A DNA stretch of 64,000 bases from Gyromitra esculenta (Eukaryota > Ascomycota > Pezizomycetes > Pezizales > Discinaceae): NCBI GenBank assembly GCA_038503075.1, contig JBCAML010000023.1:124001-188000 (forward strand), read 5' to 3'. The translations under genes and the position numbers were made by a program. Below the pieces are notes generated by a model. That model saw only the letters and a program-made list of their open reading frames with translations, made no database searches and was not told the origin of the DNA. Position 1 is the first letter of the stretch, and every line of letters starts with the position of its first letter. Shown here one piece after another: positions 1 through 56,819 of the stretch.

Positions 1-2418
1 TGCTGCGGGGGTGTCATGATGTCTTTTAACAAGTTCCAAGCGAAGGGGGTCGAAATCTGGTACGTAAAGGTTTCCTCGGTAGTAGAGTCTGTCATTCTCA
101 TTGGTACACTCGCTAAGGGTAATTTCCTTTGACTGTTGTTCCTTGTTCTTCAGTGCTAGAAGTATTTTTTCAGGGAATTTGTCAGCGATATATCCTTCTA
201 GAAAGAGTTTTTCTAGGGGGGCATCCAATTCAGCGGCTTCATTTGACAAAGAAGCCGACAACAAACTTAGCTTAGGATCAACGTTTTCTTTCTTCAACAC
301 TACTTGGCTCTGATGTGCCAGTCTTTCATCCCCTTCCTTGGGGAGATCTCCTGATCTCCTAGTCAGTGCATCGGGTTTTCCTCCTTGGCTTCCCGGTCGA
401 TACGTGATTACAAAGTCGAAACGGGATAGATACTCGGCCCATCTAGCCTGACGTCGATTGAGTTGTTTGGTGCTCATGAAGTATTCAAGATTCTTATGGT
501 CACTAATCACATCGATCGGGTGCTTTGATCCCTCCAGCTCTGGGCGCCATTCTTCGAAAACACGGATGATGGCTAACAGCTCTTTATCGTAGATCTCATA
601 GTTGCATTCCGCCGGGGAATGTTTCTTCGAGAAGAAGGCCACTGGGTGTAGGACACCGTTATCATCGTACTGGGATAGTACTCCTCCGGATACGAAGTCC
701 GAGGCATCTGTTTCCACAATGATTTTCTTGTCTGGATCGAAATGGATGAGGATGGGGGCAGTGGTAAAGGCATGCTTGAGGTTTTCAAAAGCTATATCGG
801 CTTCGACATTCCATTCGAAGACAATGCCTTTCTTGGTAAGGGCGGTGAGCGGTGCAGCGAGTTTGGAGAATCCTAGGATGAATCGACGGTAAAAATTGGC
901 AAAACCTAGAAATGCTTGGACATCCTTTACACTCCTTGGTGTTCCCCACTCTCGGACGGCTTTAAGTTTCTCCTCGTCCATTTTAATACCGTCAGGGGTG
1001 AGAATGAGACCAAGGTACTTAGTGGTCTGTACCTCGAACTCACATTTCTCCGGTTTCAATAGGATCTTGTTATCTTGGAGGGTTTGGAGGACCTTGCGGA
1101 CATGAATCTGATGCTCTGCGAAGGTATCGCTATAGATGAGAATGTCGTCCAGATAGGCGGTGCAGAATATATCTAAATATTCTTTCAGACAGTCGTTGAC
1201 AAATCGTTGAAACGTCCCGGGTGCATTAGTTAGGCCGAACGGCATAACTTGATACTCATAGAGCCCATAACGGGTGCGGAAGGCGGTCTTCCACTCATCC
1301 CCTTCAGCGATACGGATTTGATGGTAGCCATCTCGGAGGTCGAGTTTGGTATACCATTGTGCTTTCGCTAGTCGGTCCAGTGTTTCACGGATAAGGGGAG
1401 AGGTATAACGGTCCTTGACTGTAATCGCATTAAGGCCACGATAGTCTACGCATAGCCGGAGAGAGCCGTCGGCCTTTTTGACAAAGAGGACAGGGGATCC
1501 GGCGGGTGAAGAACTGGCTCGGATAAACCCTTTCTCGAGATTGTCTTCAATGTATTTTTTCAGGACGATAAGCTCTTCCCGAGACATTCCGTACAGAGGG
1601 CCAAATGGTGCTTCCTTCCCATCTTGAAGTTGTATCTTGTGGTCATAGGGTCGGCGTGGGGATAGACCTTGGGCTTTCTTCTTATCAAACATATCTAAGA
1701 AGTCGTGGTATTCGGCGGGAATTCTAGCCCTCCATTCATCTTTTGTGGTTTTCTCCTCTAGAATCCTGTTGATTTCGTAGAGTGACATCGCGTAAGCCTG
1801 TAGGGACCGTTTTCGAGTAAGGGTCCTAAAGCTGGCGGCGTTGATAAAAGAAACGTTGAGCTTAGCTGGTGCGGGGATTGAGGGGGCAGAGACGATAGCG
1901 GTATCAGAGGAGCAATGGGTGGTGCAAAGTTTAGAGTTAAACTCAATGCGTTTATCGGCAAAATGAAGGCGAACATCATGGTGATTCATCCACGGAATTC
2001 CTAACACCAGGGGGTAATGACCTAGCTGGGTTACAAAACACGGGGCTTGTTCTTGGTGCTGTTGGATGGATAGGTTGAGGTTCACTATATGTGTGATGGC
2101 TCCTGAGGCAACAGGTCGTCCATCTATAACTTCTAGTTGTCTAGGGTGTTTTAGGGGGGAGAGAGGTAAGGAGTGGTGACTCGCAAATTCCTTATCAATG
2201 AAAGCGAATCCAGAGGCTCCAGTGTCCAATAGTGCATGGGTTTTAATGATTTTATTGCTATGGGAAATGTTACAAGAAATAACGAAGTGTTCCCCATCCA
2301 GCTGATCCTCCATGCAGATATCCGATACTGAAAACCCCGAGATAGAAAACGCAGACAAAGGTAAAGAAAAAGGAACCGAAGCAGGGTCACTGGTCGACTT
2401 CGGTGAAACTAGTTTAAA
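1..2418 (-). CDS. Pol polyprotein of element 1 (protease, RT, RNase H, start of integrase), partial
   Basis: Aspartic protease, reverse transcriptase, RNase H and the start of integrase of a Ty3/gypsy element; it copies the element RNA to DNA inside virus-like particles. Visible motifs in order: protease LLDTGASGF, RT CVDYRGLNA and the catalytic YLDDILIYS, RNase H ETDASDF and YDKELLAII, and the integrase zinc-finger start KRHHDTPAA at the window edge. I translated the minus strand from the gag overlap to base 1 and found no stop, about 800 codons. No start codon is needed: the frame is minus 1 relative to gag and is entered at the slippery site at 2412-2418. The 3' end (integrase core, chromodomain) lies outside the window. 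Confidence 0.92.
2375..2418 (-). promoter_or_regulatory. Gag-pol minus-1 ribosomal frameshift signal, element 1
   Basis: On the minus strand the gag frame ends GCT TTA AAC TAG, so TTTAAAC (2418-2412) is an X XXY YYZ heptamer in register directly before the stop. After a 7-nt spacer comes ACCGAAG (2404-2398), a 16-nt loop and CTTCGGT (2381-2375), a perfect 7-bp stem. Slipping back one base enters the pol frame. Element 2 has the same heptamer, spacer and loop length with a different but still perfect stem. Confidence 0.85.
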
Positions 2419-3749
2419 GCCTCGTCTGAGGCGCCTGGTGCATCGATAGCAAAAAACTGTGGAGGCAACGGAGGAGGGGGAAGTTGGCGAGCGGAGGAGG
2501 CGGGGGGTGTTCTATTGGCGGGTGGTGCGGTGAGGGCTCCCCTCATAGTGGGTTTCTTGGGGGCAGAGGGACAGCTGGCGTAGGAGTGGTCGGGGGCGGC
2601 GCAGAACATACATTTCCCAGTAGAGCGGCGCCACTGTTTTTCTTCCTCCGAAAGCTTTCTTCTTCCATTTACCATCGTGTATCGTTGATCCTGCGGGGGG
2701 CGAGACAGGTTACTGGTTCTTCCGAAGGAAAGATCCATTGGGGCAAGGCCGCCTGGTACGAATGATGAGGCGGGGACAAAGGGGGTCATTGCTTGAGAGC
2801 TAAATTGTCCCATATTGTCTCTTGTGTTGCCTCGTTTTTCGGCTTTTCGGGCTCGGATGCGATTGTCCAGGCGGGTGAGGGTGGTGATCATTTCTCCGAG
2901 GTTAGTGGGGACGGCGGTGGCAAATACCATGGCTTCTTTCAACTCTTCTGACATCCCGTGCTCCAAGGCGTCCATCTTCGAATTTTCATCGAAGTTGAGT
3001 TGGCCCATGATGCGTTGGAAATCGGCCAGGTAAGCAGAGAAGTCACGTTTTCCTTGACGGAGCTGGTGAAGTTCCCTTCGTGCGGTACCGGTGGGATCGG
3101 GGTCTCCAAAGGCAGTTTCTAACGCGGCAATGAGAGCGGCTGCACTGGTCCAGGTAGTAAGGCCAGAGGGAAGGACGGTGTGTCGAACTTGTTCCAGGGC
3201 TGCTCCTTCCAGACGGTTAATTGTGTAGAGGATCATGGTATTTTCGTCCGCGAATCGGTCCCTGTTAACAGCGAGTTTTGAGCGAAGTTGGAGGATGAAG
3301 CCGGGGAGTTTGACTCTAGATCCGTCGAATTTCTCTGGATCTGGCATACGTTCGGAGCGATGGATAGAAGATGTCGGCGGTGGGGGAGTGGCGGTGAGGT
3401 TTGGTGGGGCCGGGGGGACGGAGAGGTTTGCGCGGGCTTCGTTTCGTTCTTGGCGAAGTCTAGCGATAAGGCTGACTGCTTCTGTAACCCTTTGATCCTG
3501 TTGTGTAGCGTGTCGGAGGGCATTGTCGATTTGGATTTGGGCAGTGCTGAGTTTTACCTCAGCGTCTTTCTCGTTGTCCTGGAGGATGCTTATTTGGTCC
3601 TCTAGGCTCTGGTTCAGTTCTCGTAGTTGATTGTACAACTCGACTGGGTCATCTCTGTATGCTTTGGCGAAGGCTTCTTTAGTGGGGAAGCTCGAGGCTG
3701 CGACGGCGGCTCCTTCTGTGCTTGAGGAGGGGTCAACGGGGGAACTCAT
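2409..3749 (-). CDS. Gag capsid/nucleocapsid of element 1
   Basis: Structural Gag protein of 446 aa that packages the element RNA. It starts at an ATG 42 nt inside the 5' LTR and has an N-terminal coiled-coil-like region rich in Glu and Gln, a proline-rich linker, the gypsy gag core (DPEKFDGSRVKLPGFILQL, about residues 137-155, and LHQLRQGKRDFSAYLADF) and a zinc knuckle CMFCAAPDHSYASC (C-x2-C-x4-H-x4-C) near the C terminus. It is collinear with the Gag of element 2 with many substitutions, so the two belong to related but distinct families. It ends ...DEALN at the slippery site. Confidence 0.93.
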   Translation of the reverse strand: MSSPVDPSSSTEGAAVAASSFPTKEAFAKAYRDDPVELYNQLRELNQSLEDQISILQDNEKDAEVKLSTAQIQIDNALRHATQQDQRVTEAVSLIARLRQERNEARANLSVPPAPPNLTATPPPPTSSIHRSERMPDPEKFDGSRVKLPGFILQLRSKLAVNRDRFADENTMILYTINRLEGAALEQVRHTVLPSGLTTWTSAAALIAALETAFGDPDPTGTARRELHQLRQGKRDFSAYLADFQRIMGQLNFDENSKMDALEHGMSEELKEAMVFATAVPTNLGEMITTLTRLDNRIRARKAEKRGNTRDNMGQFSSQAMTPFVPASSFVPGGLAPMDLSFGRTSNLSRPPQDQRYTMVNGRRKLSEEEKQWRRSTGKCMFCAAPDHSYASCPSAPKKPTMRGALTAPPANRTPPASSARQLPPPPLPPQFFAIDAPGASDEALN

Positions 3750-27481: not shown

Positions 27482-27742
27482 TTTCATGGCTATTATGAGG
27501 TAATGGGTTAGGATGGGATTATTGGTTGCCACAGATAATGTTTGGGTTATAATGTCTTTGTTCTTCGGCTAGATTCGGGTTATGAGTCAGAGTATGGAAA
27601 AGCGGGGTATTTAAGGAAGGGATTTTGGTCGTTTGTTGTTTTCTTTCTTTCTTTCCTTAAGCAACGTTCTCGTTTACTTCTGCGGTACTCGTTCAAATAC
27701 TATCTCGGTTCTACTTCAGAACTCTCGCGGTCACTGTCCACC
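27482..27742 (+). repeat. Solo LTR, subfamily A2, left part (interrupted by element 2)
   Basis: Starts TTTCATGG after ATTA and continues to ...GTCACTGTCCACC, where element 2 is inserted. The rest of the LTR resumes at 33568. The intact homologue at 55160-55567 has an uninterrupted CTGTCCACCTTTG at this point. Confidence 0.88.
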
Positions 27743-28152
27743 TTTCATGGATGGTTACTGTGTTGCTCGATTAGTGGTATAGGTGTTGTGTTGCGTTGCT
27801 TTGTCGATCGTTCTATATGTTTCCCTTGGTTTCCTTTACAATGAGTCATACGTTTGTCATCAAAGAGGTGGATTATGGGTATATAAGCGAAGGGATTCCC
27901 CCTCTTGTAGTACTTTTCTTCTTCTTTCCTTAAGCAACGTCTTCTATCGTACACTCTTGTATTCTACAAATACAAACCTCGGTTATACCTCATAACCTTA
28001 CGCTGTCGCCGCCCTCAAGTCCTCTATACTTGAAACTCTTGTAGAGCCTGTGGAATTTCGTGAACACTCTCGTCGCTTGGTTCTCTATTCAAGTAGCACT
28101 GCTCATCTCAGGGGATACCTGAGAGCTTGACGGAAAACCTCGCTCCTTGAGA
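27743..28152 (+). repeat. 5' LTR of element 2 (subfamily A1)
   Basis: 410 bp, TTTCATGG...CCTTGAGA. Identical to the 3' LTR for the first 243 bases and about 10 percent different in the remaining U5 part. Confidence 0.95.
27880..27940 (+). promoter_or_regulatory. LTR promoter: TATA box and conserved start-region AAGCAACGT
   Basis: TATATAAG at 27880-27887 is followed 52 nt downstream by AAGCAACGT (27932-27940), which is nearly invariant in all LTR copies of the window. The spacing fits a fungal transcription start near TTAAGCAACG, but the start is inferred. Confidence 0.6.
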
Positions 28153-28163: not shown

Positions 28164-28221
28164 CCTCATCCACACCCTCTACCCCGCTTTCACACGCTGC
28201 CACACAAACCCCAACGCCATC

Positions 28222-29466
28222 ATGAGCAATCCTGCCCCCGCCCCCTGGACGTTCCCAACCTTCGAGAACTTCCAGGCTGCCGCCAACGCCGACCTCGCCT
28301 CCGCCTATGAGGAAATTCGATCCCACTATCAACAACGGGTCGACAACCTCACGTATGCAGACCTACAGCTGGAAGAGGCTATACAAGAGCGCAACAACAT
28401 GACGGCAAGATTTAATACTTGCCAGTCTCAATTGCAGGCAGCCGAAGCAGAAGTCACCCGCCTCCGCAACGTTGCCCCCCCACCACCCGCACCATCGCCA
28501 CCCCCCCCTCCTGCTCACACTCAAGGAGGTCGCTCGGATAAAATGCCGGATCCAGATAAATTCAACGGATCTCGCGATAAACTTCCCGGATTTGTCTTGC
28601 AACTTCGGTCAAAGCTCTCGGTTAATGCCGACCGCTTTTCAAACAGCAACAATATGATATTGTATGCTATCAGCCGCCTTGAGGGAGCCGCCCTTGAACA
28701 AGTTCGTCACTCTGTCCTCCCTGACGGGACTACCACTTGGAATAACGCCGCTGAATTGATTACCGCCCTGGAAACCGCCTTCGGAGACCCCGACCCACTT
28801 GGAACGGCCCGCCGCGAGCTACACCAACTTCGACAAGGAAAGCGAGATTTCTCCGCCTACCTTGCCGACTTTCAACGAATCATGGGACGGTTAAACTACG
28901 ACGAGTCAGCAAAGAACGATGCCCTGGAATACGGAATGTCGGACGAGCTGAAGGAAGCCGTAGTGACTGTAGCCGACTTCCCTACCACCTTCACCTCCCT
29001 CTGCGCCTTCCTCCTTCGCTTGGACAACCGTATCCGAGCAAGAAGAGAAGAGAAAAAAAATGCTGCCCGCAATACCATGGGACAGTTTACCGCCCCCGCC
29101 GCCGCCCCCGCCGCCTTCACTCCTGCCTCCTCCTCCTTTGCTCCTGGAGGACTTGTACCCATGGACCTTTCCTTCGGCCGCACTTCTACCACCCGCCCTG
29201 CTCCCGAACAACGATATGTTCAGATCAACGGAAGAAGAAAACTGTCTCCCGAAGAAAAATCCTGGAGGCAAACTAACAACCGCTGCCTGTTCTGTGCCGG
29301 AGAAGGGCACATTTTCTCAAACTGCCCTTCCGCTTCAAAACGCCCCGCTATGAGGGGAGCCGTTACCAATGCCGCTGCCCCTCCCGCTCCCTCTGTTTTT
29401 CCACCACCACTGCCACCTCGCTTTCCTGCCTTCGATGCAGCAGACTCAGTCGAGTCTTTAAACTAG
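28222..29466 (+). CDS. Gag of element 2
   Basis: 414-aa capsid/nucleocapsid precursor from ATG 28222, chosen because the open frame before it has no ATG and lies over the priming site. N-terminal coiled coil (AYEEIRSHYQQRVDNL, LEEAIQERNNM), Pro-rich hinge, core DPDKFNGSRDKLPGFVLQL and LHQLRQGKRDFSAYLADFQR, basic LRLDNRIRARREEK, and zinc knuckle CLFCAGEGHIFSNC (C-x2-C-x4-H-x4-C). It ends ...VESLN at the slippery site. Intact reading frame; collinear with Gag of element 1. Confidence 0.95.
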   Translation: MSNPAPAPWTFPTFENFQAAANADLASAYEEIRSHYQQRVDNLTYADLQLEEAIQERNNMTARFNTCQSQLQAAEAEVTRLRNVAPPPPAPSPPPPPAHTQGGRSDKMPDPDKFNGSRDKLPGFVLQLRSKLSVNADRFSNSNNMILYAISRLEGAALEQVRHSVLPDGTTTWNNAAELITALETAFGDPDPLGTARRELHQLRQGKRDFSAYLADFQRIMGRLNYDESAKNDALEYGMSDELKEAVVTVADFPTTFTSLCAFLLRLDNRIRARREEKKNAARNTMGQFTAPAAAPAAFTPASSSFAPGGLVPMDLSFGRTSTTRPAPEQRYVQINGRRKLSPEEKSWRQTNNRCLFCAGEGHIFSNCPSASKRPAMRGAVTNAAAPPAPSVFPPPLPPRFPAFDAADSVESLN

Positions 29467-29501
29467 TTCAACCAGAGTCGCCTCGTGACCCTGCTCTGGT
29501 T
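29457..29501 (+). promoter_or_regulatory. Gag-pol minus-1 ribosomal frameshift signal, element 2
   Basis: Gag ends TCT TTA AAC TAG, giving the in-register heptamer TTTAAAC at 29457-29463 directly before the stop. A 7-nt spacer leads to ACCAGAG (29471-29477), a 16-nt loop and CTCTGGT (29494-29500); an extra A-T pair can close it (29470, 29501). The minus-1 frame from here is pol (FKLVQPES...). Confidence 0.88.
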
Positions 29502-32500
29502 CGTTTTTCTTCTTTGTCAGCGTTTTCCATTTCTGGGTTTTCAGTGTCGGATGTGTGTGTGGAGGATAATTTGGACGGGGAACATTTTGTAGTTTCATGT
29601 AGCCTTTCCCACCAAAATAAAATCATAAAAACACACGCACTTCTTGACACTGGAGCCTCAGGATTCGCTTTCATTGATGAAAACTTTGTGCGTCACCATT
29701 CCCTTCCCTTATCTCCCCTAAAAACCCCTCGTCAATTGGAAGTCATTGATGGCCGAACAATTGCTTCGGGAGATATTACAAATCTTTGCCACCTAGAGCT
29801 TTCCATCCAACAGCATACTGAGAAAGCCCCCTTCTTCGTCACCAAGCTAGGCCACTACCCCCTGGTACTTGGGATCCCCTGGATGAACCTCCATGACATT
29901 CTTCTACAGTTTGCCAACAAAAGCATTGAATTCAATTCTGAATTCTGCACCACCCACTGTGCCCCCAAGCAACCCGTCGTCTCAGCCACCGCCATTCCCC
30001 CTCCACCAAAACTAAACGCCGCCTTTATCGGTGCAGCTAGTTTCCGCATGCTCGCCAGGAAGAAGGGTATCCAAGTGTATTCCATGTCCCTCTATGAAAT
30101 TAACAGAGTCCTTGATAGCAAGACTACCAAAGAGGAGTGGAGACAACGAATACCCGCCGAATACCACGAATACCTGGACATGTTCGACAAAGCTAAGGCT
30201 CAAGGACTCCCCCCCCGACGATCCTACGACCATAAGATTACCCTGCAAGAAGGCAAAGAACCACCATTCGGCCCGCTCTATGGTATGTCACGAGATGAAC
30301 TTCTAGTTCTCAAGAAGTATATCGAAGACAACTTAGAAAAAGGGTTTATCCGTGCCAGTTCATCTTCCGCCGGTTCTCCAGTCCTCTTCGCCGCCAAACC
30401 CGATGGTTCCCTCCGCCTTTGTGTCGATTACCGTGGCCTTAACGCTCTCACGGTAAAAGACCGATACACTTCCCCCCTGATCAAAGAAACCCTGGATCGC
30501 CTTGCAAAAGCTCAGTGGTACTCCAAACTTGATCTCCGTGATGGCTTCCACCAAATTCGTATCGCTGAGGGGGAAGAATGGAAAACAGCCTTTCGAACCC
30601 GATATGGCTTGTATGAATATATGGTAATGCCATTCGGCCTCACCAATGCCCCTGGAACCTTTCAACGCTTCGTCAATGACTCCCTCCGGGAATACTTGGA
30701 CCTATTCTGCACGGCGTATCTCGATGATATTCTGATCTACAGTGATACCCTGGCAGAACATAAAGTGCACGTCAAACAAGTTCTCGATGCCCTTAAAGCC
30801 AATAACATCCTTCTCAAACCCGAGAAGTGTGAATTCCACGTCCAGTCAATAAAATACCTTGGCCTAATCCTCACCCCTGAAGGAATTAAAATGGACGAGG
30901 ACAAACTTAAAGCAGTACGAGACTGGAACCGACCTAAATGTATCAAAGATGTCCAGGCCTTTCTAGGTTTTGCAAACTTCTACCGAAGATTCATCCTAGG
31001 ATTCTCTCGCCTCGCCGCGCCCCTTACTGCCTTCACAAAAAAAGGCACTATCTTCGAATGGACAATCGAAGCTGAACTTGCATTTGAAGCCCTTAAGGAT
31101 GCATTTACCAAAGCCCCGGTGCTTATCCACTTCGACCCCCGAAAGAAAATCTTCGTGGAATCCGATGCATCCGACTTCGTCTCCGGCGGTGTACTCTCCC
31201 AGCTCGATGACAACGGCGTACTTCACCCTGTGGCATTCTTCTCTAAGAAACACTCACCCGCTGAATGCAACTATGAGATCTATGACAAGGAGTTATTGGC
31301 CATTATCCGTTGTTTTGAAGAATGGCGCCCTGAACTTGAAGGATCTGAACTCCCTATCTCCGTTATCACAGACCATAAAAACTTGGAATATTTTATGACG
31401 ACCAAGCAACTAAATCGAAGACAGGTCAGATGGGCGGAATACCTTTCACGTTTCGACTTTGTCATTACATATAGACCAGGAACACAGGGAGGAAAGCCGG
31501 ACGCTCTAACTCGGAGATCAGGAGATCTCCCTGAAGAAGGGGATGAAAGACTACAATACCAACACCAAGTAGTCTTGAAGGAGAAGAACGTTGATCCCAA
31601 GCTAAGTTTGTTTTCGGGTTCTTTGTCAAACGAACCCGCCGAATTGGATGATACCCTTAAAACATTGATGAATGACGGATATATCGCTGACCCATTCCCA
31701 CAAAAAATTCTTTTAGCACTCAGGAATGGCGAACAACAATCCAAAGAAATATCCCTCGGCGATTGTACAGAAATAAACGGCTATCTTCTATACCGTCAAA
31801 AGTTTTACATCCCCAATCATGACCCTCTCCGACTGTCTATCCTTAAACGACACCATGATGCCCCCTTCGCAGGTCACCCTGGACATGAAAAATCCTTCGA
31901 ACTTATCTCTAGGCATTTTTATTGGCCAAAAATGAGAGAGTACATTGGATGATATACTCTGAACTGTCATACCTGCTGACGAGCGAAACCTAATACCCTT
32001 GGCACTCATGGCGTCCTTAAACCCCTTCCCATTCCAAATCGTCCTTGGGAAGAACTACCGATGGACTTTGTCACTGGCCTCCCAGATTCTAGTGGTTTCG
32101 ATGCAATAATGGTCGTAGTGGACAGGCTATCGAAGATGCGACATCTGATCCCCTGCAATACCACCATCAACGCTGAACAAACGGCAGAACTCTATCTTCA
32201 AAATGTCTGGAAGCTCCAAGGATTACCTTCCCATATTACTTCTGATAGAGGAACACAGTTTACCGCCAAGTTCTGGAAATACCTCTGCCAACGTTTAAAC
32301 ATCTCTGCTCGTATGTCGACTTCTTTCCATCCGGAAACAGATGGTCAAACCGAACGTCTCAATGCCGTTATGGAACAATATCTTCGCTGTTATGTTTCAT
32401 ACCAACAAGACGACTGGGCAAAGTGGTTACCGATGGCTGAGTTTGCTGCTAATAACCAAGAGTCAGCCAGTACCAAAGCCACACCCTTCTTCGCCAATTA

Positions 32501-33143
32501 TGGCTATCACCCCCGCTTCGACACTGCAATTATCCCTAATGATCGATCCCCACAAACCCTCGACGCCAACCTCTTCGCTTTAAAAATGGAAGAACTTAGG
32601 GACTTCCTTCGAACTCAGATGAGAACAGCCCAGGATATTTTTGAAACCAATACTAACCGGCACCGTACCCCTGCTCCTTCGTTTAAGATCAACGATCGAG
32701 TCTTCGTGTCAATGAAGAATATGAGGACGACCCGAAATTCAAGAAAGTTGGACTGGAAATGGAGTGGCCCCTTCCCTGTGAAGCGAGTGATTTCTGCACA
32801 TGCCTACGAAGTAAACTTACCGATGTCAATGAAATACCATCCAGTATTTCACGTTTCGTTACTCAAGGCAGCTCCCACTGACCCACTTCCTGGCCAAATT
32901 ATTCCACCTCCTCCCCCCATCCAAGTAAACGACGTCGAAGAATACCTCATCGAAAGCATATTGGACTCTCGCCTCCACCGAGGAAGACTCCAATATTTGG
33001 TCGAATGGACGGGGTATGCGTTACCTACGTGGGAACCTGCGGAGTATCACGAAGAAACGGAAGCAGTAGACGCATTCCACCAAAGATATCCGAATAAACC
33101 AAAGGAAGGTCTGGTTAGTGTTCGCAGGAGCTCACGGCTATGA
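29457..33143 (+). CDS. Pol of element 2 with two in-frame TGA codons
   Basis: Polyprotein entered by minus-1 frameshift. Domains in order: protease LLDTGASGFAFID (29641 on); RT LRLCVDYRGLNAL, PFGLTNAPGTFQRF and catalytic YLDDILIYS (30718 on); RNase H ESDASDFVSGG, YDKELLAII, TDHKNLEYF; integrase zinc-binding HH...CHTC (31850-31975); integrase core MDFVTGLP (Asp), TSDRGTQFTAKF (Asp) and FHPETDGQTERLN (Glu); then a chromodomain VEEYLIESILDSRLH ... YLVEWTGYALPTWEPAEY near 32930-33050. TGA codons at 31950-31952 (after REYIG) and 31977-31979 (after CHTC) interrupt the integrase zinc region; both are one C-to-T step from CGA (Arg), and the frame is otherwise continuous. The chromodomain suggests targeting to modified histones. 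Confidence 0.95.
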
Positions 33144-33155
33144 GGGAGGGGGTAC
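33143..33155 (+). other. Polypurine tract
   Basis: GAGGGAGGGGG followed by TAC just before the 3' LTR; the usual plus-strand DNA primer position. Confidence 0.75.
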
Positions 33156-33567
33156 TTTCATGGATGGTTACTGTGTTGCTCGATTAGTGGTATAGGTGTT
33201 GTGTTGCGTTGCTTTGTCGATCGTTCTATATGTTTCCCTTGGTTTCCTTTACAATGAGTCATACGTTTGTCATCAAAGAGGTGGATTATGGGTATATAAG
33301 CGAAGGGATTCCCCCTCTTGTAGTACTTTTCTTCTTCTTTCCTTAAGCAACGTCTTCTATCGTACACTCTTGTATTCTACAAATACAAACCTCGGTTACA
33401 CCTGATAACCTTACGCTGTCGCCGTCCTCAAGTCCTCTATACTTGAACACTCCGTAGAGCCTGTGGAACTTCGTGAAACTCTCTCGTCGCTTAGTTTTCT
33501 CTTCAAGTAGCACTGCTTATCTCGGGGGATACCTGAGAGCTTGAAGGTAAAACCTCGCCCCTTGAGA
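33156..33567 (+). repeat. 3' LTR of element 2
   Basis: 412 bp, TTTCATGG...CCTTGAGA, followed by the CCACC target copy. Confidence 0.95.
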
Positions 33568-33719
33568 CCACCCTATTGCACTTATCTCGCCTGGAGATAG
33601 ACCACACTGTAGAACCTGTAGAAAACATTGCACTCTTCGAACATGTCGATAACTCATTTAAGTAGCACTGCTCACCTTCAGGGATACTGAAGGGCTTAAC
33701 GAGGGATCGAACCGTGAGA
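33568..33719 (+). repeat. Solo LTR, subfamily A2, right part
   Basis: Continues the LTR of 27482-27742 after element 2 (CCACC, then ...CTCGCCTGGAGATAGACC...) to CCGTGAGA. Right flank ATTAC against left flank ATTA suggests a 5-bp duplication with one base lost. Confidence 0.88.
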
Positions 33720-36139: not shown

Positions 36140-36652
36140 GTGCAAGAGGATGCGTTGTCAAAATCCCTCGCTGCCAATTGCAACTTGCGCTTCGAAACTT
36201 TAGAAAAAAACACAAAAAAGTTCTACAGTACTTCCCTGCCTACCGGCGCACCCCCAGTAACGTTGCGGCATTTTGACCAGATTGCAACGCCCAAAGTTTC
36301 CCAACAAGCATTGGTAGAATGTACTGCAAATTTACAGTATGATAGCATGATATCTGGTGTATAGTCTACCAAGTTTAATTTATACAAACTTGTTGAGCTT
36401 GGTGCTGTCCCTGTCCTTGCAGCTGAGTATCGTGGTCATCGCTCTTTGCACAAATTAAACCAGCACAAAACACCAACTCCAGAGCTGGGCTACTGCAACC
36501 AAGAACAATTGCACACAATAGATTTTCTCCTATATTACTTTACTGATATTATTCCTCAATTTGCATTTTTTTTCAAATTTTTCGAATTGTTTTTGGTGCT
36601 CCCAAAATCTAGTGACCCAAACGCCACGCCGCTACCAATGGAGCGCTGGTAG
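36140..36652 (+). pseudogene. Unknown coding-like frame with one in-frame TAG
   Basis: One frame runs from about 36140 to the stop at 36650-36652, about 170 codons, interrupted only by TAG at 36362-36364. Pieces: LPTGAPPVTLRHFDQIATPK, ALVECTANLQYDSMISGV before the stop and YKLVELGAVPVLAAEYRGHR, HTIDFLLYYFTDIIPQF after it. No ATG at the beginning, so an upstream exon may be missing. Not recognised. Confidence 0.38.
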
Positions 36653-36677
36653 GGAGGGAAGCACTGTACTTAGTCTG

Positions 36678-37256
36678 ATGAATCCTGAAGGAAGCTGTGA
36701 ATCTTGCGAACATACGTCAGTAAGAGACAATGACAGGGCCTACTGCATGAAGTGCGCCCACAAATTCAAACTGATTCCGTGGCCAAAAATCGCAAAAAAT
36801 CGAAAATCCATTACCGCCATAACCTGGAAAGAGCTTATCACTGCAGATATTGAAGAAATCATTGGTAAATATGGGTGGAAATCTGGCCTGGTAGTTGTCT
36901 TTCATATCCAGAGAGTAATGAAACTGTTAACGCTCAAAAAGGCGCGCTGTGGGATGGTGTCATCAGAATTCAGCAAGTGCGTAAGGCCTAACCTCTGGAC
37001 CAACATAACACTTGGGCAGGGGGAGAAGATGTACGCAGCCGTGAAGATTGATCTTGAAAATTATGAAAGTTTCCGGCAACCACCTCAAACCCACTGGTTT
37101 GAAGACGATGTGATCTTTAAGAGCATCGCCTATAGGCTGCACAACACTGAACTAAGAAGGAAACGAAAGGCGAACGAGGAGCAGCGGAAGGCAGATAAGG
37201 GGAAGTACAAAGTGGCCGAAAAGCAGAGGCGGCTTGATCGCAATATATGGAGTTAG
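36678..37256 (+). CDS. Hypothetical zinc-ribbon-like protein
   Basis: 192-aa product from ATG 36678 (the longer open frame upstream has no ATG). It begins MNPEGSCESCEH and has CMKCAHKF, giving a C-x2-C ... C-x2-C pattern that may bind zinc. The middle is a mixed alpha/beta-looking region (WKELITADIEEIIGKYGW, PNLWTNITLGQGEKMYAAVK), the C terminus is very basic and helical (ELRRKRKANEEQRKADKGK). The frame is intact. No family recognised; nuclear or nucleic-acid binding is only suggested by the basic tail. Confidence 0.5.
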   Translation: MNPEGSCESCEHTSVRDNDRAYCMKCAHKFKLIPWPKIAKNRKSITAITWKELITADIEEIIGKYGWKSGLVVVFHIQRVMKLLTLKKARCGMVSSEFSKCVRPNLWTNITLGQGEKMYAAVKIDLENYESFRQPPQTHWFEDDVIFKSIAYRLHNTELRRKRKANEEQRKADKGKYKVAEKQRRLDRNIWS

Positions 37257-42776: not shown

Positions 42777-43177
42777 AAGAACGAGTAAGAGGTCCAGGAT
42801 AATGTGTTGGTTGTAACGGTTTCGGATTAAGGAGACAATGTCTTTGTTGTTCGGTTGGATCTCGGATATGAGTCATTTGGTATGGAAAGCAGGGTATTTA
42901 AGTAATGGGTTTTGGTCGTCTTGTACTTCTCTTCTTCTTCTGTCCTTAAGCAACATTCTCGTTTCACTTCTACCTGTACTATTCAATACTACTTCGGTTC
43001 TACCTCAGAACCCTCGCTGTCGCTATCCTAGCCGCTGCACTTAACTCGCCTTGAGTTAGACCCCCTTGTAGAACTTGTAGAAACTCTGCACTCCTCAAAC
43101 GTGTTGTTTCCTCTCTTGAGTAGTACTGCTTATCTTCAGGGATACCGAAGAGCTCAAAAGGAGACACAACTGTGAGA
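42777..43177 (+). repeat. Solo LTR, subfamily A2, TSD CATAG
   Basis: 401 bp, TTTCATGG...TGTGAGA, flanked by CATAG at 42772-42776 and 43178-43182. The start-region motif is mutated to AAGCAACAT here. Confidence 0.92.
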
Positions 43178-43461: not shown

Positions 43462-43873
43462 TTTCACGGATACGAATGAGTAAATGGGTCAAGGATGTGG
43501 CATGGGTTGTGATAGGATTTCGGTTAGGGTTATAATGTCTTTGTGTTTTGGTTGCTATCGGTTATGAGTCACAGTGATGTAAAAGAGGGGTATTTAAGGG
43601 ATGGGTTTTGCTCGCTTGTGTCTTCTTCTTCTTCTTTCTTTAAGCAACGTTCTTACCTTACTTCTACTGTATTGTTTTAATACTACCTCGATTTTACCAC
43701 AGAATCCTCCCGGTCGCTGTCGCTGTGAAAACCTTTACACTTAACTCGCCTTGAGTTAGACTCACGTAGGACCTGTAGAAACTTCGTTACTCTTACTGCC
43801 ACGATCCTCGTCTAAGTAGCTCCGCTCACCTTCTGGGATACAGAAAGGCTTAAACAAGGATCGAACCGTGAGA
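43462..43873 (+). repeat. Solo LTR, subfamily A2, TSD CCAAA
   Basis: 412 bp, TTTCACGG...CCGTGAGA, flanked by CCAAA at 43457-43461 and 43874-43878. Its U5 hairpin is TTCTGGGATACAGAA, with both sides of one pair changed. Confidence 0.93.
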
Positions 43874-46952: not shown

Positions 46953-47402
46953 TTTCATGGATGAGTGTTTCGTTGGCCAGTTAGGTACATAGGTATCTGG
47001 TTGTTTTATTTCGTTGTTATTCTTTATGTTTCTTTGGGTTTCGATTATTATGAGTCAGGGATTTGTCATCGAAAGGATGGATTGTGGATATATAAGCGAA
47101 GGGCTTTCCCCTCTTTGTATCTTTTCTTTCTCTTCTCTTTAAGCAACGTCTTATATTGTCACTCTACTTGTATCCTACAATACAAGCCAGGATTCCCACA
47201 CAATCCTTCGTCGTTTCGATGATACTTCTCGTTTATCATGACCACTACACCAACGTAGTTTCACCATCGAAGTCATCTTAACTTCCGTTGACCGTAGAGC
47301 CTGTGGAATTGTTACCTAAACTCCTGTCGCTAGTTCTCGTTTAAGTAGCACTGCTCACCTTTGGGGATACCAAAGGGCTTAACGAGATCTCGCTCCTTGA
47401 GA
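46953..47402 (+). repeat. Solo LTR, subfamily A3, TSD CTGAT
   Basis: 450 bp, TTTCATGG...CCTTGAGA, flanked by CTGAT at 46948-46952 and 47403-47407. Confidence 0.93.
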
Positions 47403-51281: not shown

Positions 51282-52353
51282 TATTCCCTCGCTAGAGACT
51301 CCTAACCCATAGGACTTAGAGCATTTAGTCATGCCTCCCTTCACTCCAACCCCTGAACTCTTCCTTCCTCATCCACATCCGCTCCACAGAACACCCCCTA
51401 GAAAGCTGCTCTATTGGCTGCCATATAGACCCTCTTCAAAAGCTTGCCTATGAAGCCTCAATATAGGCAGTTCTATTGAGACTTCGCTGACTGCCATATA
51501 GACGCGCTCCCAACACCTCTACAGCTCGTCTAGAGAGCACCTATATCGGTTGCTCACTGACTGCCATATTGACACGCTCCCTACCACCCTAGAGCTCGCC
51601 TAGGGAGCTCCAATATTGACTGCTCGCTGCCTGCCAAAGAGATGCGCTCCCTACCACCCTAGAGCTTGCCTAGGGAGCTCCTATATCGACTGCTTGCTGA
51701 CTGCCATATAGACGCGCTCCCTACCCCCTTGGAGCTAGCCTAGGGAGCTGATATATTGACTGCTCGCTGCCTGCTGGAGAGATGCGCCCCTAGAGCTTGC
51801 CTAAGGAGCTCCTATATGGACTGCTCGCTGACTGCCCTATAGACCCGCTTCCTACCTCCCTAGAGCTTGCCTAGGACGCTCCAATATCAACTGCTCACTG
51901 CCTGCCCAAGAGACGCCACCTGACCCCCCTAGCAAGCTCCTAGGGAGCTCCTATATTAACTGCTCGCTAACTGCCATATAGACACGCCCCCAACCCCCAT
52001 AGCTCGCCTTGAGAGCCCCTATAATGACTGCTTGTTGACTGCCATATATATGCGCTCCCTACCCCCCTAGAGCTTGCCTAGGGAGCTCTTACATCGACTG
52101 CTCGCTGCCTTCCATATAGACGCCTCCCTACCCCCCTAGAGCTCGCCTAGGAGCTTCTATATTGACTGCTCACTGACTGTCATATAGACGAGCTCCATAC
52201 CCCCTCCCTAGAGCTTGTCTAGGGAACTCCTATATTGACTGCTCGCTAACTGCTGCAGAGACGTCCTCCCAGCCCCCTATTGCTCGCCTAGAGAACTCCT
52301 GCTTCGACTGCTCACTAACTGCCATATAGACACGCTCTTGACCCCCCTAGAGA
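51282..52353 (-). repeat. Right arm, outer part: about 14 tandem units of ~70 bp
   Basis: Units carry GACTGCTCGCTGACTGCC, ATATAGACGCGCTCCC and CTAGAGCTCGCCTAGGGAGC. They begin after CTCTTCCTTCCTCATCC (about 51360), which mirrors the left arm at 48070. Confidence 0.85.
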
Positions 52354-52963: not shown

Positions 52964-54154
52964 TGTAACGGATCTACAATACCGTTACCTGCAGTGAAGC
53001 ATAATAGTACCGGGCAAGCAGAGAGGTAGCAAGGATCAGCATGAGTGGTGTAGCTACCACATGTTAGAGGATACCTGCTACCCTGCTGTTCCGTTTCACG
53101 GATGGTTGTCTTGTTGGTTAGTTTGGCATATAGATATATGGTTGCTACGTTTTGTTGTTGTTCTTTGTATTTCTTTGGGTTTCGGTTGCAATGAGTCATA
53201 TGTTGGTCAGCAAAAGGTAAGATTATGGGTATATAAGCGAAGGGTGTTCCCCTCTTGTTGCACTTTTTCTTCTTTCTTCTTTAAGCAACGTCTTCTGTTG
53301 TCACTTTACTTGTACTCTATAATACAAGTCAGGATTCCTACATAATCCTTCGTCGCCTCCGTGATACCTCTTTTTCTATCACGTCACTAAATCAACGTAG
53401 TCTTGCTGTCGGAGTCATCATAACTACCTTTTATCGTAGAGCCTGTGGAATCGTCGCCCAAACTCTTGTCGTTAGTTCTCGTTCAAGTAGCACTGCTCAC
53501 CTTTGGGGATACCAAAGGGCTTTACGAGATCTCGCTCCCTGAGATTCCGATGGAATGGAACCAGCGAGAATAATATTAGCTGACGAGCCAATGATATATC
53601 TCCGGTGATACCAAACACAGGAAGCTCCTGTGGTGGCGTTCCCAACCCATCTGTGCATATACTAGCGGCCCAGAGCCACTGGTGCGGCAATAGGGAATCT
53701 ATTAAGTGCAGGACACCTCACATGCAACAGTAGACTGATCAGCGCCGATTCCTGCATCCAGCATAGGCATGGCATGCAGCTGGCGGATCTAGAAGGTCTA
53801 ACTGGACAGAACAACCGAGGAGTGCCGGAGAGCGCCGAAGTGATCATTAGCTCAATCCTGAGGTGCCCCACTCGCAATAGCTTGGCATGTCCTCAGGGTC
53901 TCGACGGGCCCCCATCAGAGTAGAACAGAAAGAGGACGGCGAGTCAGCAGGACTATAAAGATAGTCCATGGCCCCGCCACCTGTTGCTCTTTTTCCCAAA
54001 TCTCATCAGACAGAATACTACCGAGTAGAGCCCTTAAGATTATTGAGTACTTTGCCCAAAAATACTCTTAACATCTCAACCTGATTTAGTATTTGCAACG
54101 GCCGTATTCCTATACCTATTCCCACTACAGAGTAGTAGGACTACCCCCGTTACA
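52964..54154 (+). repeat. Family B LTR-like repeat, copy 2, TSD GTCGC
   Basis: TGTAACGG...CCGTTACA flanked by GTCGC at 52959-52963 and 54155-54159. 1191 bp, about 735 without the nested solo LTR. Its ends and 5-bp duplication suggest a solo LTR of an unidentified retrotransposon. Confidence 0.85.
53094..53544 (+). repeat. Solo LTR, subfamily A3, TSD TTCCG
   Basis: 451 bp, TTTCACGG...CCCTGAGA, flanked by TTCCG at 53089-53093 and 53545-53549, inside family B copy 2. Confidence 0.95.
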
Positions 54155-55159: not shown

Positions 55160-55567
55160 TTTCATGGATTGGAACAAAGTATTGCGGTAGAAGCATGCTT
55201 GGCGGTTGCGACGGGTTGCGGGTATTAATATATTGTCTTTGTGTTTTGGGTTGTTGTCGGTTATTGGTCGTTGGTTGGAAAAGCGGGGTATTTAAGTGAT
55301 GGATTTCAGTCGTTCTTTGTCTTCTTCTTCTTCTTTCCTTAAGCAACGTTCTCGTTACCTTCTGCTGTATCTGTTAGAATATTACCTCGGTTCTACATCA
55401 GAACCTTCGCTGTCGCTGTCCACCTTTGTCTCTATCTCACCTTGAGATAGACCGCTTGTAGAACTTGTAGAAACATCGCACTCTTTGAACGTGTTGTTAC
55501 CCCGCTTAAGTAGTACTGCTCACCTTCGGGAATACCAAGGGTTTAAACAAGGGACTCAACCGTGAGA
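55160..55567 (+). repeat. Solo LTR, subfamily A2, TSD GTACT
   Basis: 408 bp, TTTCATGG...CCGTGAGA, flanked by GTACT at 55155-55159 and 55568-55572, inside the minisatellite. Confidence 0.93.
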
Positions 55568-55634: not shown

Positions 55635-56062
55635 AGACATGGATGGACGCACCCTTAACGGATGTAATCGGATTAAAGGTCAAGGATTAGATAAGGGTTG
55701 CTATGGGTATTCGGTTGTAGTATAATGTCTTTGTTGTTCGGTTGTTGTTCGGTTAAGGGTTAGGGAAAAGAATGTGAAGTATTTAAGCGATGGATTTTGG
55801 CTGTTTGTTGTTTTCTCTTCTTTCTTTTTTTAAGCAACGTTCTCATTTTACTTCTACTGTATTGCTTTAATACTACCTCGATTCTACCTCAGGATCCACG
55901 CTGTTGCTGTCGTTATCACGCTGCACTTAACTCACCTTGAGTTAGACCCCTCGTAGAACTTGTAGAAACCTCGCACTCTTTGAACGTGTTAGAACTTCAC
56001 TTAAGTAGCACTGCTCACCTTCAGGGATACTGAAGGGCTTAACAAAGAACTGAACCGTGAGA
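55635..56062 (+). repeat. Solo LTR, subfamily A2, TSD GTACC/GTACT
   Basis: About 428 bp; the first bases are changed (AGACATGG), the end CCGTGAGA is intact. Flanks GTACC (55630-55634) and GTACT (56063-56067). Confidence 0.85.
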
Positions 56063-56357: not shown

Positions 56358-56819
56358 AGCCATGGATGGTCGTTGTGTTGTGATACGGGTACTTTATTGT
56401 TCTGTTCGGTTGTAGGAATGCTTGGCGTTGCGATTGTTCTTTATGTTTCTTTTGGTTTCCATTTGCAATGAGTCAGACATGTGTCATCGAAGGGTTGGAT
56501 TTTTGAGTATATAAGCGAGGGGAAAGCCCTTCAGTTGTACTTTTCCTTCTTCTTTCCTTAAGCAACGTCTTCTATTGTCACTCTACTTGTATCCTACAAT
56601 ACAAGCCAGGATTCTCTCAGATTCCTTCGTCGACCCCGTGATACTTCTCGTAACTATCACGCCACTACATCAACGTAGTCTCGCTGTCGGAACCTTAAGT
56701 TCCCCTTATTGTAGAGCCTGTGGAACCATCGTTCAAACTCTCGCTGTTAGTTTCCGTTCAAGTAGCACTGCTCGCCTTTGGGGATACCAAAGGGCTTGAC
56801 GAAAACTCACTCCTTGAGA
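56358..56819 (+). repeat. Solo LTR, subfamily A3, no clear TSD
   Basis: About 462 bp; start altered (AGCCATGG), end CCTTGAGA. Hairpin CCTTTGGGGATACCAAAGG. Flanks GGCAG and ATGGC do not match. Confidence 0.82.

Follow-up and report, generated by a model that had tools for sequence, protein, structure and literature searches.

The window analysed here, a stretch of 64,000 nucleotides of the Gyromitra esculenta genome (positions 124001-188000 of contig 23; 47.1 Mb in 23 contigs), carries two chromovirus (Ty3/gypsy) elements in which gag closes at a stop codon and pol lies in the -1 frame relative to gag. How, then, is Gag-Pol made? A preliminary description of this DNA proposed that the gag-pol of the lineage is produced by -1 frameshifting, a proposal supported here by the retention of a slippery heptamer, the covariation of a stem and a frame overlap of 10 nt. 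From the comparison of copies, we conclude that the junction is very probably a programmed -1 ribosomal frameshift site making Gag-Pol in a family of fungal chromoviruses.

The gag-pol junction in two chromovirus elements

Element 2 lies on the forward strand and element 1 on the reverse strand (Table 1). In both, Pfam identifies Retrotrans_gag and DUF4939 in gag, and RVP_2, RVT_1 and RNase H in pol; rve, SH3_Tf2-1 and Chromo are identified in element 2, so that its domain order (gag, then protease-RT-RNase H-integrase-chromodomain) is that of a chromovirus, and element 1 reaches the window edge past RNase H and is truncated there. The LTRs of element 2 are 95.9% identical over 414 aligned positions. 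Its pol has an in-frame stop at 31950-31952, ahead of the integrase-chromodomain part, and longer open frames occur in other copies; given this stop, the element 2 copy looks inactive.

Table 1. Positions of the junction features, the surrounding coding regions and the repeats in the window
Feature	Position	Strand	Basis or remark
5' LTR, element 2	27742..28152 (approximate ends)	+	aligned to 33155-33567
gag, element 2, from its ATG	28219..29466	+	Retrotrans_gag, DUF4939
Upstream hairpin GACTC-AGTC-GAGTC, element 2 (candidate element)	29443..29456	+	adjoins heptamer
Slippery heptamer TTTAAAC (T TTA AAC), element 2	29457..29463	+	gag codons TCT TTA AAC TAG
gag stop TAG, element 2, flush with heptamer	29464..29466	+	direct reading
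5' arm of downstream stem, element 2 (ACCAGAG plus inner U of U.G pair)	29471..29478 (7-bp arm 29471-29477)	+	8 bp
14-nt loop, GTGACCC at 29485-29491	29479..29492	+	motif kept across copies
3' arm of downstream stem, element 2 (CTCTGGT plus inner base)	29493..29500 (7-bp arm 29494-29500)	+	covariation
pol, element 2, -1 frame: protease, RT, RNase H, integrase start	29514..31952	+	ends at in-frame stop
Remaining pol, element 2: integrase core, SH3_Tf2-1, chromodomain	32061..33143	+	Pfam
3' LTR, element 2	33155..33567 (approximate ends)	+	aligned to 5' LTR
gag, element 1	2409..3749	-	ORF and Pfam
Upstream hairpin GCCTC-AGAC-GAGGC, element 1 (candidate element)	2419..2432	-	adjoins heptamer
Slippery heptamer, element 1, then TAG 2411-2409	2412..2418	-	gag end GCT TTA AAC TAG
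5' arm of downstream stem, element 1 (ACCGAAG)	2397..2404 (7-bp arm 2404-2398)	-	direct reading
3' arm of downstream stem, element 1 (CTTCGGT)	2375..2382 (7-bp arm 2381-2375)	-	direct reading
pol, element 1, runs off window	1..2358	-	ORF and Pfam
LTR-like hairpin repeats	28084-28150, 33653-33719, 43111-43177, 43807-43873, 47336-47402, 53478-53544, 55501-55567, 55996-56062, 56753-56819		by eye

Direct reading agrees with the preliminary description that gag of element 2 ends in T TTA AAC TAG and that element 1 has the same heptamer and stop. The heptamer has the canonical eukaryotic form, X XXY YYZ in the 0 frame with the downstream ORF in the -1 frame, and the -1 reading, TTT AAA CTA..., is continuous with pol in both elements. 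The downstream stem begins 7 nt past the heptamer in both; the spacer of 7 nt described earlier holds if it is counted from the heptamer with the stop included, only 4 nt remaining after the stop. The arms ACCAGAG and CTCTGGT, 16 nt apart as are those of element 1, were likewise correctly described, except that the 3' arm ends at 29500 rather than at 29501. On its loop side the stem has an eighth pair, which is U.G in both elements and U-A or C-G in other copies, and which reduces the loop to 14 nt rather than 16. The preliminary description mentions neither this inner pair nor the conserved loop motif and the upstream hairpin described below. Stimulatory stems and pseudoknots are expected 5-9 nt past the heptamer, and the 8-bp stem at 7 nt is in this range.

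Several other features of the window were recorded. By eye, the hairpin arms of nine LTR-like repeats seem to covary around a GGATA loop (CCTTCAG/CTGAAGG, CCTTTGG/CCAAAGG and TCTCAGG/CCTGAGA, with a mismatch in some copies), and the hairpin may represent a second RNA element with covariation in these LTRs. An ORF of 231 aa at 36561-37256 has no Pfam match at E 0.001, and a repeat at 51516-52151 consists of five overlapping copies with a spacing of 70 nt and longer.

Heptamer retention and reading frames among the copies

To compare junctions we used copies from this one genome. The protease-region search found at least 150 places with element 2 and at least 150 with element 1, 150 of 746 candidates being scored each time, and sequence was taken for 110 loci. 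The starting set of 90 lost L054, which has no pol, and 8 of the remaining 89, which were identical over the compared stretch; the 81 kept, 20 protease matches hand-chosen for diversity and element 1 made 102 distinct copies. Dropping L038 (heptamer and stem present, pol match too far) and L061 (junction missing) left 100. L046 and L064 were excluded from the codon counts, the tree and the loop scans, and the windows of synonymous variation cover 68 copies, partial ones having been removed.

Since 25 of the 100 copies were found through the heptamer itself and are uninformative on its retention, we counted it among the 75 copies picked by the protease region, element 2 included: TTTAAAC is present in 73 and TTTAAAT in 1, and one has no junction (L061). 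Copies lacking the heptamer, which the preliminary description had named as evidence that would speak against its reading, are thus scarce in the same genome. A stop adjoins the heptamer in all 100 copies (TAG 95, TAA 5; 69 and 5 among the 74 protease-picked copies with a junction). The absence of variation at the heptamer codons in the codon count is no evidence, because that count took only TTTAAAC copies.

The decamer TTTAAACTAG, with one mismatch allowed, has 5 matches in the window (2 exact) against a shuffle mean of 6.8, which is not unusual. Across the genome there are 588 exact decamers, compared with 169 occurrences of the pattern in reverse. This excess, together with the position of the signal and its paired changes, opposes a chance origin of the whole.

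The reading frames confine the place at which a shift could occur. In 49 of 79 copies, a TGA closes the pol frame a short way before the heptamer, and the gag frame ends immediately behind it. The overlap of the frames is then just 10 nt long, with the heptamer at its end (GTCTTTAAAC in 45 copies), and a -1 shift can join them only within these 10 nt. The overlap is longer in the window copies: it reaches 180 nt upstream of the heptamer in element 2, and 93 nt upstream in element 1.

The frames also bear on the idea that pol is expressed from a start of its own, by splicing or by readthrough of the gag stop. Past that stop, the 0 frame stays open for 41 codons in 51 of 79 copies and for 4 codons in another 10; because pol lies in the -1 frame and the 0 frame closes so early, readthrough alone cannot give pol. 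The protease motif was located in 77 copies; in 64 of these no Met precedes it in the pol frame, and in the other 13 one does, as an independent start would need. Any of these routes would leave both heptamer and stem unexplained, and we consider expression of pol without frameshifting scarcely probable.

Paired changes in the downstream stem

Thermodynamic stability says little about this stem, which is short. The folding energies of the stem window in the two elements, -11.7 and -9.7 kcal/mol, are ordinary (z -1.8 and -1.2), a longer folding window gives z -0.8 and -0.6, and an Rfam scan of the window at gathering scores returned no match. Folding energy alone being weak, the argument depends on comparing copies.

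The stem is fully paired in 93 of the 100 copies (68 of the 74 protease-picked copies), although its arms occur in 15 combinations: ACCAGAG/CTCTGGT (51), ACCAAGG/CCTTGGT (21), ACCGAAG/CTTCGGT (5), ACCGGAG/CTCCGGT (4), ACTGAAG/CTTCAGT (4) and ACCTGAG/CTCAGGT (3) are examples. Four of the eight pairs show two-sided change. Unpaired substitutions, which the preliminary description had set down as counter-evidence, do occur in 7 of the 100 copies, three of which form a small subfamily with an A.C mismatch; in the other 93 none is found.

Shuffling gave a similar picture. Among 54 distinct 47-mers, 97.7% of 432 cells are paired, and none of 500 shuffles reaches either this percentage or the covariation score; cells with two-sided change number 51, against 16.3 in the shuffles (0/500). 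Two of the five shuffle measures are ordinary, namely the number of pairs with two-sided change (114/500) and the number of pair types (148/500). Sliding the partner arm lowers pairing to 24-52%, and RNAalifold, predicting on its own, returns the same 8 pairs. For low synonymous variation, the stem-loop stretch takes rank 3 among 199 windows in one group of copies and rank 6 among 198 in the other.

To place these changes on branches, we used a tree built from the pol of 75 copies, 20 short loci without pol being excluded. Paired changes fall on the same branch 8 times, against a mean of 1.1 expected (0/10,000) and 0-3 for slid partners, with 5 of the 8 at a single pair; when each pair is treated as one state, 13 branches carry a double change. 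These branch counts hang on one tree, which recombination among copies may distort. When independent columns were simulated on the tree, the summed covariation score stayed below that observed in all 2000 runs. No single pair falls below an E of 0.05 in the tree-based test, yet the best three (0.10, 0.31 and 1.67) are the top three of 231.

Could the matched arms instead reflect recombination, whole junction blocks having been swapped between families with no compensatory evolution? Copies within one genome can recombine, L053 has a very long pol branch, and in L093-L096 the upstream 5' side belongs to one type, the 3' side to the other. Block exchange does not account so readily for what is seen within the element 2 type, where the rest of the stem-loop is fixed and one pair still varies genome-wide: A-U 150, G-C 6, G.U 4 and A.C 2 (Fisher p 2.5e-7, a value that is too small given that the copies are related). 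Both sides of that pair change on five branches of the tree, and exchange would in any case leave the origin of each matched arm set to be explained. We therefore give block exchange a very small probability. The comparison of sequences indicates that the stem is maintained by compensatory change: pairing in 93 of 100 copies and repeated two-sided changes bear out the earlier claim that matched arm changes keep the pairing and that the stem is under selection.

Flanking elements, related systems and a possible mechanism

Within the loop, GTGACCC hardly varies and is present in 98 of 100 copies. The codon that opens this motif in the pol frame is TGT, CGT, AGT or GGT: its first base, and with it the amino acid, varies and its last two bases are fixed, which points to conservation of the RNA and not of the protein. 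Scans for a partner covered about 1450 nt before to 1850 nt past the pol start, where no conserved partner of at least 6 pairs was present in more than 25 of 77 copies, and the stretch from 200 nt upstream to 500 nt downstream of the heptamer, where no conserved partner of at least 6 pairs was found. Several 5-pair partners are widespread, one of them in 76 of 77 copies; such matches are frequent. About 180 nt into pol there is a GTCAC, the complement of GTGAC, whose third codon positions are unchanged in both groups (68 copies) and which appears in 76 of 77 copies in the partner scan.

The conservation of the loop bears on another reading, in which the stem is selected for a different task of the genomic RNA (packaging, dimerisation or Gag binding) and contributes little to the shift at the heptamer. 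The retention of GTGACCC is perhaps stricter than a frameshift loop needs, and the scans found no intramolecular partner for it, as this reading would allow. The stem nevertheless lies exactly 7 nt past the heptamer in the 93 fully paired copies, the spacing expected of a stimulator, and we judge that such a task has little probability of being the main explanation.

On the other side of the heptamer, a 5-bp hairpin ends flush with it (zero spacing) in 88 of 100 copies. The arms are GACTC/GAGTC or GCCTC/GAGGC, the loop has 4 or 7 nt, and a G.U occurs in a few copies; the hairpin is absent from L093-L096, L026, L042, L050, L051, L064, L065 and L105, and L044 has only 3 pairs. In L093-L096, whose downstream stem is ACTGAAG/CTTCAGT, the upstream 5' side of one type is joined to the 3' side of the other, a mixed junction that perhaps arose by recombination.

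The evidence for selection on this hairpin is mixed. Of 74 windows, the one covering the last seven gag codons varies least at synonymous sites in both groups. Random re-pairing of the arms among 55 distinct sequences gives a mean of 26 hairpins against 43 observed (0/5000), relatedness not having been removed; of 3289 other gag codon positions, 123 (3.7%) have a comparable hairpin ending at them. When synonymous versions are made for the same peptide with gag codon use, 39-49% of them form the hairpin for 11 of the 14 representatives (L057 gives 13.6%; L050 and L093 have no hairpin), and in the 12 representatives with a hairpin 3-27% of these versions fold as well as the native sequence or better. 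Taken together, we regard these sequence comparisons as suggestive of selection.

The heptamer is probably a trait of part of the lineage. Named relatives of gag and pol include Morchella sextelata. Two of 12 gag relatives end in LN as here (P0001, P0003), 4 end in FQ (P0002, P0004, P0005, P0006), and the remainder end otherwise or are partial; because 4 of the 12 end in FQ and not LN, the heptamer is probably confined to some members, and the FQ-ending relatives should use a different recoding site. The FQ-ending gags come from Morchella and metagenomes, and the Morchella gag P0005 matches 103 places in the genome. A comparison of element 2 pol with viral_contigs gave no relatives, and a phage search gave one short weak match.

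Neither the mechanism nor its use by such elements is new. Outside the fission yeasts, -1 frameshifting is the predominant strategy of Tf1/sushi elements (PMC10085805), and in Verticillium the elements VdLTRE2/3/4 combine a chromodomain with a pol in the -1 frame (PMC3441728). The Tf1/sushi chromoviruses of fungi and fish (MAGGY, skippy, Cgret, grasshopper, sushi-ichi) are alike in -1 frameshifting, a likeness drawn from published descriptions. PEG10, a domesticated gene of the same Ty3/gypsy superfamily, also uses -1 frameshifting, but it is a host gene rather than a mobile element and has a pseudoknot stimulator (PMC5009743). The plant Sirevirus LTR elements share a covariant stem at the gag-pol junction and differ in having pol in the +1 frame, an 11-bp stem and a 4-nt loop (PMC5009743). 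In the literature searched, which included little subscription literature and is weak evidence of absence, we found no earlier report of this retrotransposon signal.

Among viruses, the coronavirus IBV has the same heptamer, U_UUA_AAC, at ORF1a/1b (PMC5009743). SARS-CoV has a hairpin just upstream of its site, like the candidate here; the viral hairpin lowers -1 frameshifting, and more so when it is closer (PMC3639245). The coronavirus site differs from the fungal elements, in which the 0-frame stop is flush with the heptamer, and the SARS-CoV stimulator is a pseudoknot, whereas none was found in the fungal elements scanned. In equine arteritis virus a stop directly follows the heptamer, and the stimulator is a pseudoknot. 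The heptamer of this arterivirus at ORF1a/1b, where X_XX is G_UU(A), differs from the fungal TTTAAAC (PMC5009743).

In the proposed mechanism, the ribosome would meet the stem while decoding UUA in the P site and AAC in the A site, and both tRNAs would slip back to UUU AAA; a minority of ribosomes would continue into pol and the others would terminate at the codon that follows. With mammalian ribosomes, UUUAAAC ranks among the heptamers most prone to shifting (PMC5009743). Less certainly, the flush stop may help shifting, the GUGACCC motif may make a further contact, and the upstream hairpin may tune the shift rate. By analogy, these parts can be combined into a two-sided RNA clamp, in which the covarying stem would stimulate, the flush upstream hairpin would refold behind the ribosome and lower the rate, the stop would be adjacent, and the GUGACCC loop would bind in trans or far away; this combination is tentative, and we think it unlikely.

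If the clamp were true, it would provide a natural, many-copy upstream frameshift attenuator in a retrotransposon, and the authors of PMC3639245 hope for searches for overlooked upstream regulators. The many copies in one genome amount to a natural mutation experiment on a frameshift stimulator, in which heptamer, stop, spacing and the loop GUGACCC hardly vary and the stem varies in pairs. The site is a compact one for asking why a plain stem suffices at some sites and what role a heptamer-adjacent stop plays, and it also suits the question of whether upstream hairpins tune natural ratios of Gag to Gag-Pol.
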